The notes under the pieces were generated by a model that was not told where the DNA came from, searched no databases, and worked only from the letters and a program-made list of their open reading frames with translations. DNA of 39,911 bases from the IMG/VR virus record IMGVR_UViG_3300000956_000088, positions 1-39,911 of that record. One strand, written 5' to 3'. Positions 9,598 to 22,166 of the stretch are shown here, piece by piece. Position 1 is the first letter of the stretch. Every line of letters starts with the position of its first letter. This DNA is from a virus. The translations under genes and the position numbers were made by a program.

Positions 9598-9857
9598 TAG
9601 TTGCCCCAGGAGAAGACAGGGTCAGGCATGGAAAGGGAGTCAATGGCAGTCCTGGGGACAGCCTTAACCGGCGCCTTGGCCTTCTTGGGAACTGCCACAA
9701 TGGGCTGGGTGGCTACCACATCCCCGGAACCGCGCTTGACACAGATGCTATTACCGTCACAGGAATAGGTAATCTCAGTGAAATCCTTACTGAATTCCTT
9801 CAGGACCTTAAGCAGGGCCTTGACTTTCCTGGTCTCAGAACGGCTAGAACTTGCCAT
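9597..9857 (-). CDS. small protein between terminase and portal, 86 aa
   Basis: Unrecognised. The first 30 residues are basic and helical (SETRKVKALLKVLKEFSKDF). The middle has a short beta pair with two Cys (YSCDGNSICVKRGSG). The end is Ala, Pro and Lys-rich (VPKKAKAPVKAVPRTA). The translation start has no Shine-Dalgarno. Instead the 14-base inverted repeat ACCAGCTAACTGGT (minus sense, 9877-9864) ends six bases before the ATG, and a second such hairpin lies 30 bases further up, right after the large terminase stop. It could be a packaging accessory factor; this is inference from position. Confidence 0.75.
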   Translation of the reverse strand: MASSSRSETRKVKALLKVLKEFSKDFTEITYSCDGNSICVKRGSGDVVATQPIVAVPKKAKAPVKAVPRTAIDSLSMPDPVFSWGN

Positions 9858-9863
9858 ATCGTT

Positions 9864-9907
9864 ACCAGTTAGCTGGTATTCAGGTATGGTTCGTTACAGT
9901 TAGCTGT
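9864..9907 (-). promoter_or_regulatory. two CAG-CUAA-CUG hairpins ahead of the 86-aa gene
   Basis: Minus sense reads ACAG-CTAA-CTGT at 9907-9896 and ACCAG-CTAA-CTGGT at 9877-9864, each followed by TAACGA. The first begins inside the stop codon of the large terminase gene; the second ends six bases before the next ATG. The same loop and stem core recurs ahead of other late genes (11840-11855, 13797-13807, 36544-36553, 36576-36591). A protein-binding translational operator is a plausible role. Confidence 0.5.
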
Positions 9908-18208: not shown

Positions 18209-18286
18209 CCAATTGCCAGGTTGCACGCGAGGCCATCCCATAACCGCGGCGCATTAAATGACCCAGGCAGGTGGCCTGGTAATTGG
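18209..18286 (+). promoter_or_regulatory. mutually exclusive hairpins before the helicase gene
   Basis: In the 92-base gap, CCAATTGCCAGG (18209-18220) pairs with CCTGGTAATTGG (18275-18286) in eleven of twelve positions, the twelfth being a G-U in RNA. The CCTGG arm can instead pair locally with CCAGG at 18263-18267. The helicase ATG at 18296 has no good Shine-Dalgarno. This looks like an RNA switch or a barrier to read-through. Confidence 0.45.
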
Positions 18287-20902: not shown

Positions 20903-21113
20903 GTGGCAAGAAAGACTGTATCAGGAAATTGACAACGGTGCTTACCTGTTTCAGAAAACTTGCCTTGCAAAGTCCTGGATTCTTGTTAGCAGCGATGGAG
21001 TTAGATATGTAAACCGTAAACGTGTCCAGGAGATGATTGACGCCGGCATGTTAGATGTTTCGGAAATCAAGAAATGCAAAATGGCATTCCCAGGGGCAGA
21101 CTATGAAAGCTAA
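20895..21113 (+). CDS. hypothetical protein, 72 aa
   Basis: The ATG at 20895 is in an ATGA overlap with the HTH gene. Unrecognised soluble protein with many aromatic and basic residues (MNKWQERLYQEIDNGAYLFQ, SSDGVRYVNRKRVQEMIDAG). The segment VRYVNRKRVQEMIDAGMLD resembles the helical half of a small DNA-binding or excision-type fold, but this is too weak to name. It overlaps the next gene. Confidence 0.65.
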   Translation: MNKWQERLYQEIDNGAYLFQKTCLAKSWILVSSDGVRYVNRKRVQEMIDAGMLDVSEIKKCKMAFPGADYES

Positions 21114-21273
21114 GAAAGCAGCCAAGCGCAAGGCCCATATCCGCAACCAGCTGGCCCTGGGCAAGGTTAATCGCTATGACGGTGTATGGGCTGACCCTGG
21201 CTGCCTTGATAGGAAAGTGGCGGACAGGGCTGCTATCATTTCGCAGCGCATGATGTCGAGTAAGAATAGTTAG
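21103..21273 (+). CDS. basic 56-aa hypothetical protein
   Basis: The ATG at 21103 follows AGGGGC and overlaps the previous stop; a longer in-frame TTG start at 21055 is less likely. The N-terminus is very basic (MKAKKAAKRKAHIRNQLALG). The C-terminus is KVADRAAIISQRMMSSKNS. It could be an RNA- or DNA-binding peptide. A 101-base gap holding a tRNA-like fold follows. Confidence 0.6.
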   Translation: MKAKKAAKRKAHIRNQLALGKVNRYDGVWADPGCLDRKVADRAAIISQRMMSSKNS

Positions 21274-21279
21274 CTTGTA

Positions 21280-21372
21280 GCCTGTTTAGGTTAACAAGGG
21301 CGGATACTAGTCACGCCTAGGTAAACCGGCCCGGAGCCCGGGCAGACCCTGGTTCGAGCCCAGGAGCAGGCG
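21280..21372 (+). ncRNA. tRNA-like element overlapping the primase ribosome site
   Basis: The 3' half is a convincing tRNA T-arm: CCTGG-TTCGAGC-CCAGG (21348-21364), followed by AGCAGGC (21365-21371), which pairs over seven positions with GCCTGTT at 21280-21286 (one G-T). The total length of 93 bases and a GCCCGG/CCGGGC stem with a three-base loop (about 21329-21343) resemble a class II tRNA with a long variable arm. I could not build a proper D-arm and seven-base anticodon loop; the nearest stem, GGGCG/CGCCT, has an 11-base loop. No CCA is encoded. AGGAG at 21362-21366, the primase Shine-Dalgarno, lies in the T-stem and acceptor. It is either a decayed or odd tRNA, or a regulatory mimic. Confidence 0.45.
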
Positions 21373-21374
21373 CG

Positions 21375-22166
21375 ATGCATACACGCGAAGAAGTAACAGC
21401 AGCCAAGCGGGTATCGCTCCTGCAACTGCTGCCAGCCGATGCTAAGCTTATCTCAAAAGGTAATGGACGTTACATGACACTGTGTCAGTTTCATGACGAG
21501 AAGACCCCCAGCATGTCACTGGTCAAGTACGATGACGGTTGCTGGGGCTATCGCTGCTTCGGGTGCGGGGCCAGTGGCGACCCAATCCGGTACCTGCAGA
21601 AGACGAAAGGGATGGATTTTGTGGATGCTGTCAAAGAACTGCTGCAGTCAGCTAAAACTGCCCCGGAACGGCCACAAGTCGTTGACACGTATCGTTACCT
21701 GGACAAGGACGGTAAACTTGCATACGAAGTGCTACGGTATAGCCCTAAGAACTTTCGCATGCGGCGACCAACGGACCAGGGCTGGAGCTGGTGCTTAGAT
21801 GGACTCGGTCGTGTACTGTATCAACTGCCGGTTCTGCTATCTGCCACCGGAGATATCTTCTATGTTGAAGGCGAGAAAGATGTCAAATGTCTTTCTTCAC
21901 ACAACCTTACTGCAACAACTCATGCAGGTGGAGCAGGAAGCTATAAGACTGAACTACTGCAGCAACTGCCGGTCGTCCCAGGACGGCGAGTCATTGTTGT
22001 GCCTGACAGGGATGAACCAGGAATGAAGATGATGCGTCGTATCTTTGCCGATGGCAGGTCGCTGGGCCATGACATGCACTTCCTGTTACTGCCACAGGGA
22101 AAGGATAGTACCGAATTCTTTGAGCTTGGTGGAACGCTTGAACAATTTCTTAGCGAGGTAAAATAA
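21375..22166 (+). CDS. DNA primase, CHC2 zinc finger plus TOPRIM, 263 aa
   Basis: DnaG-type primase that makes RNA primers at the phage fork. The zinc ribbon CQFH at 37-40 and CFGC at 61-64 gives Cys37, His40, Cys61 and Cys64. The TOPRIM domain follows, with VEGEKD at 164-169 and VPDRDEPG at 209-216. The linker (about 100-155) has the pattern seen in short phage primases. At 263 residues it lacks a helicase domain, so the replicative helicase and polymerase must come from elsewhere (host or off-window phage genes). The ATG at 21375 has its AGGAG inside the tRNA-like fold just upstream. Confidence 0.92.
   Translation: MHTREEVTAAKRVSLLQLLPADAKLISKGNGRYMTLCQFHDEKTPSMSLVKYDDGCWGYRCFGCGASGDPIRYLQKTKGMDFVDAVKELLQSAKTAPERPQVVDTYRYLDKDGKLAYEVLRYSPKNFRMRRPTDQGWSWCLDGLGRVLYQLPVLLSATGDIFYVEGEKDVKCLSSHNLTATTHAGGAGSYKTELLQQLPVVPGRRVIVVPDRDEPGMKMMRRIFADGRSLGHDMHFLLLPQGKDSTEFFELGGTLEQFLSEVK

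Follow-up and report, generated by a model that had tools for sequence, protein, structure and literature searches.

Which role is played by the tRNA-like element that lies immediately before the primase gene of this phage? The window, a 39.9-kb (39,911-nt) phage record, encodes a terminase, an SU10-like portal, a helicase, an exonuclease and a DnaG-type primase. The element takes up all but 9 of the 101 bases separating the upstream stop codon (21273) from the primase ATG (21375). The first-pass annotation had offered three readings for it without choosing among them: a tRNA mimic controlling primase translation, a decayed tRNA, and a tRNA whose processing would cut the message ahead of the primase.

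We observed that the element is laid out like a tRNA cloverleaf (Table 1). The 7-pair acceptor stem (one pair is G-U) and the correct T-arm that the first-pass annotation had placed at its two ends are both there, and the primase Shine-Dalgarno (SD) lies in the T-stem and acceptor strand, as the annotation had stated. The linkers are 2, 1, 4 and 0 nt long, which matches the cloverleaf plan, so that the long arm falls in the place of the D-arm and the triloop hairpin in that of the anticodon arm. The long arm is 39 nt in length and folds at −15.4 kcal/mol (z = −4.1). These two arms give the middle of the element a structure of its own and complete a four-way junction, which adds to the earlier description. 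So far a single genome is known to carry the element, and the small upstream ORF had no family match.

Table 1. Coordinates of features at the primase start (window numbering) and of minihelix loci in actinophage records (numbering of the record named).
Feature	Position	Strand	Remark
Small ORF upstream of element	21104-21273	+	stop 6 nt 5' of element
Cloverleaf-like element	21280-21371	+	
Acceptor stem, 5' strand GCCTGTT	21280-21286	+	sequence, fold, shuffle test
U8-A9 as in tRNA (T8-A9 in DNA)	21287-21288	+	
14-bp imperfect arm in D-arm place	21289-21327	+	apical loop ACUA
Linker base G	21328	+	
6-bp hairpin GCCCGG-AGC-CCGGGC in anticodon-arm place	21329-21343	+	triloop, without anticodon
GGCAGAC immediately 5' of T-stem	21341-21347	+	common to actinophage minihelix family
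Linker AGAC	between hairpin (ends 21343) and T-arm (starts 21348)	+	
Canonical T-arm CCTGG-TTCGAGC-CCAGG	21348-21364	+	
Primase SD AGGAG, within T-stem and acceptor	21362-21366	+	8 nt to ATG
Acceptor stem, 3' strand AGCAGGC	21365-21371	+	
G at discriminator position	21372	+	CCA not encoded; RNase Z cut after G predicted
DnaG-type primase (zinc ribbon and Toprim)	21375-22166	+	start supported by homologues
Minihelix locus, L153	42895-47478	-	
Minihelix locus, L154	42119-49370	-	
Minihelix locus, L155	7047-12325	-	
Minihelix locus, L156	8209-14527	+	
Minihelix locus, L157	1497-1925		
Minihelix locus, L159	1193-1235		
Minihelix locus, L160	2496-4735		

The element is more stable than expected by chance, with a minimum free energy (MFE) of −45.7 kcal/mol (z = −3.5), a value that none of 200 shuffles reached. 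The combination of a canonical T-arm and a following 7-bp acceptor is present once in the window and in neither of two relatives, G001 and G002; it was expected 0.0075 times per dinucleotide-shuffled genome (400 shuffles of the window), or 0.0025 times when T8 was also required. Because all shuffle tests were run on an element already singled out, these numbers are somewhat optimistic. These data confirm that the element is real and non-random.

We assessed its capacity to act as a tRNA. The acceptor, U8-A9 and the T-arm with its TTCRANY loop are canonical, which is what could be said for a functional tRNA of unusual shape. No anticodon arm with 5 bp, a 7-nt loop and U33 could be drawn in the element. 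A D-arm with GG in the loop had only a weak 3-pair candidate, and the MFE structure puts the long arm there instead; the first-pass annotation was thus right that normal D-arm and anticodon loops are missing. ARAGORN at its default threshold reported no tRNA, in keeping with that annotation, and with a lowered threshold gave a 'Gly-gcc' of score 36 with mismatches and no U33. Rfam had no match at the element for tRNA, tmRNA or any other family. A decoding function is excluded, and the chance that an odd but working tRNA sits here is negligible. Of the three earlier readings, tRNA origin or mimicry is strongly supported, and regulation of the primase is plausible only.

We also considered that the element is an attP site, a piece of host tRNA gene kept for integration. 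Among 120 other viral sites with the identical 17-nt T-arm, 92 lie inside tRNAs called by ARAGORN, and most of the remaining 28, all in IMG/VR contigs, resemble the tRNA 3' halves of attachment sites. A tRNA-like gene of HF2 has likewise been proposed to be an attP (PMC8707807). The element differs from such 3' halves in having a paired 5' acceptor strand, and no recombinase or integrase was seen among the larger ORFs scanned in this possibly incomplete record. An exact search for its 23-nt 3' end in 84,980 genomes of bacteria and archaea, a set from which the host may be absent, found no match, and a 22-nt version had none in viral contigs. Given the paired 5' strand, the lack of a recombinase in the ORFs scanned and the lack of an exact host tRNA counterpart, we rejected the attP reading as very improbable.

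The main alternative is a decayed phage tRNA gene that lost its D and anticodon parts by deletion or rearrangement, its 3' end being kept solely as the primase SD. Several records (L079 at 1856, L105, L013, L016, L090, L023) contain intact phage tRNA-Asn genes in which the acceptor 3' strand, GGAGGAG, could act as the SD of an ORF beginning a few nucleotides later. Those in L079 and L105 abut the next ORF and lend weight to decay, as do anticodon-truncated tRNAs in L120 and G003 and the lack of a conserved position for the element in relatives. The SD constraint alone would not preserve 7 acceptor pairs, 5 T-stem pairs and two stable middle arms. When the acceptor and T-arm were held fixed and the middle was shuffled, 36 of 2000 sequences were equally stable, and just 1 of 2000 was equally stable and also formed a four-way junction, which speaks against decay. 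We consider this alternative somewhat unlikely.

Other phage tRNAs of unusual form or position were also seen. The truncated tRNA in L120 (1385-1442) is 58 nt long, has an almost deleted anticodon arm and was missed by ARAGORN. Two tRNA-Asn-like sequences (L070 near 70-180 and L098 near 9777-9880, both minus strand) carry insertions of tens of nucleotides in the anticodon loop. In L022, L026, L034, L043 and L047, an ORF of ~195 aa, putatively a corrinoid adenosyltransferase, starts with GTG about 2 nt after the end of a tRNA-Gly gene.

Searches with the primase and helicase found no close relatives, and portal searches found none in genome contigs. Terminase and capsid searches gave two distant relatives, and a third, G003, was added through the primase alignment. 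G001 has a terminase 56% identical to that of the window; the primases of G002 and G003 are 57-58% and 52-55% identical, respectively. Comparison with the related phages went against a conserved leader: nothing is conserved before the primase in the two nearest, G002 and G003, where the upstream stop and the primase start overlap, so that there is no gap and no room for the element. No canonical T-arm was found anywhere in G001 or G002. A related primase in an Arthrobacter phage is preceded by a large gap, which holds no tRNA-like element. As judged from these genomes, the element is lineage-specific. Because the start overlaps the stop in G002 and G003, the element appears to have come with a change in how the primase is translated; we give even odds, as part of the best explanation, that it replaced the stop-start coupling of the relatives.

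We observed a second tRNA-like element in this group, at a different gene. In G003, ARAGORN reported a 'tRNA-Ala' ending exactly 3 nt before the helicase ATG (L132 810-879; L143 2310-2379), the same spacing as that of the window element. Its acceptor, D-arm and T-arm are perfect, its anticodon arm is malformed (4 nt short, with two mismatches), and Rfam gives no tRNA match for it. Placement of this kind, in which tRNA-like and probably non-decoding elements abut the starts of replication genes, thus occurs twice in the group. Since the genes differ, this suggests repeated acquisition of such elements rather than one conserved leader. We also considered the leader of the window's own helicase (18209-18286), which at first looks like an acceptor and T-arm. 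It folds as a rod without a tRNA loop and showed no excess over shuffles, and was rejected. The rod itself is a 16-bp inverted repeat directly 5' of the helicase start.

We evaluated the accessibility of the primase start. In modelled short transcripts, the SD was 85-89% paired; in longer ones, the model weakened the acceptor pairing and favoured pairing with the coding region. Opening the primase start region was predicted to cost 18.8 kcal/mol, compared with a median of 10.3 kcal/mol for the other genes, which places it seventh among 43. Six of the 43 genes cost more to open, so SD occlusion alone is not exceptional in this phage, and comparison with the 42 other genes weakened it as a distinguishing feature. 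Scans for promoters and terminators found nothing at the element, and the GC skew does not switch there. The claim that the fold controls primase translation therefore stands as plausible: the modelled pairing of the SD speaks for it, and the higher cost at six genes against it.

The reading that we prefer, with a probability of roughly 0.5, is that the primase cistron has in this element a cis leader derived from a tRNA (a pseudo-tRNA), which would regulate the cistron by SD occlusion, processing or both. Several observations support this: the tRNA features are non-random, all four arms are paired while the decoding parts are absent, the element fits closely between the stop and the ATG, the G003 helicase element has identical spacing, and the yjdF riboswitch and cis-tRNAs provide a precedent (PMC9142559). 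Against it count its occurrence in one genome only, the unexceptional occlusion, the lack of anything conserved before the primase in relatives, and the yielding of acceptor pairing to coding-region pairing in longer modelled transcripts. The element probably serves regulation or processing at the start of the primase, and repression through occlusion that ribosomes or cleavage would relieve is plausible. The fold would close over the SD in the nascent transcript and keep primase initiation low, and relief would come when the acceptor and T-stem open up. A ribosome that reaches them from the upstream ORF could open them, as could pairing with the early coding region (21415-21424) or cuts by host RNase P (21279/21280) and RNase Z (21372/21373).

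These cuts could themselves be the purpose of the element. It would then be a tRNA punctuation mark, excised by host RNase P and RNase Z so that the primase message is separated from the upstream genes as a nearly leaderless mRNA (5'-CGAUG). The acceptor and T-arm are the part of a tRNA that both enzymes recognise, and both are present. The predicted RNase Z cut leaves 2 nt before the AUG in the window and G003 elements alike, and phage C4 and M3 RNAs as well as polycistronic mRNAs are among the other substrates of RNase P (PMC11143913). A cut of this kind would take away the sole primase SD; neither CCA nor RCC follows the discriminator, and the element lacks the GG of the D-loop that an elbow requires. 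We regard punctuation as unlikely.

A weak BLAST match led to Streptomyces phage phiScoe45, in which eight gaps of the early region each hold one 42-nt element. These minihelices have a 5-bp acceptor, an 11-nt linker with GGCAGAC or GGCACAC, a 6-bp T-stem with a TTCGAGT loop, and the acceptor 3' strand. Similar sequence occurs in at least 113 Streptomyces records, at up to eight places each and unannotated among the matches listed, and further matches were found in Mycobacterium, Gordonia and Microbacterium phages. In 33 copies chosen by linker and T-arm only, all five acceptor pairs were formed in 32, versus 31% when strands were crossed between copies. Changes on both sides were seen at 9 of 11 pairs in an alignment of copies whose selection rested in part on pairing. 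The covariance model R1, trained on 32 copies, detected additional copies not given to it, which scored 32 to 56 bits. The minihelices escape both ARAGORN and Rfam, and we found no description of them in the open-access literature (subscription journals lay outside the scope of the search); the family is apparently undescribed.

All 22 minihelix copies checked end 31-50 nt before the next start codon, too far to contain its SD, and 18 of the 22 lie within 18 nt of the previous stop, on the coding strand. The window element shares with them a tRNA T-arm and stacked acceptor, the position right after a stop on the genes' strand, and the motif GGCAGAC before the T-stem; GGCAGAC or GGCACAC preceded none of 834 other phage T-arms tested. 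It differs from these short forms, with their shorter acceptor, longer T-stem and distant starts, in having two extra arms, a 7-bp acceptor and an end 3 nt before the start codon. It was the best R1 match in 12 kb of the window searched without filters, and its score of 15.9 bits (E = 0.047 in 12 kb, 0.97 in 250 kb) is below the approximately 32 to 71 bits of family members. We did not place it in the family; distant kinship or convergence may account for the resemblance.

Should the fold prove to control primase output, a phage would here have recruited a tRNA for gene control and placed the SD within its T-stem and acceptor. Because the actinophage family combines strong covariation, many copies per genome and cultured, tractable hosts, the function of tRNA-like leaders in phage operons becomes directly testable there. 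We tentatively propose that intercistronic tRNA-like elements without an anticodon could form a widespread, independently elaborated class of phage RNAs, whose acceptor and T-arm would engage ribosomes or tRNA enzymes to translate or cut polycistronic messages; the window element would be a large, SD-containing version.

Known systems resemble the element in part. The yjdF riboswitch, a homologue of tRNA, controls an SD, and translation rose 2- to 6.3-fold in vitro with cis-tRNA leaders (PMC9142559), so that enhancement by the window element is conceivable beside repression. In both systems, as here, a tRNA-related fold lies in the mRNA leader of the next gene, and there it controls translation. 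yjdF differs in that its aptamer lies upstream of the SD and has a D-loop/T-loop elbow and a ligand, whereas the window element holds the SD inside its T-stem and acceptor and lacks the D-loop GG. The intact tRNA-Asn genes in L079, L105 and other records share an acceptor 3' strand that doubles as an SD near a start codon, but have anticodons. The C4 RNA of P1/P7 and the M3 RNA are also phage RNAs with a tRNA-like part, recognised in their case by the tRNA enzyme RNase P; they are separate RNAs and RNase P substrates, whereas the window element is an SD-bearing leader known from sequence (PMC11143913). The SAS/ESAS of Cluster K mycobacteriophages likewise carry AGGAG and lie within 3-7 bp of the starts of non-structural genes (PMC3203893). 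They are 13-bp repeats present in many copies without support for an RNA hairpin, whereas the window element is single, structured and tRNA-like.
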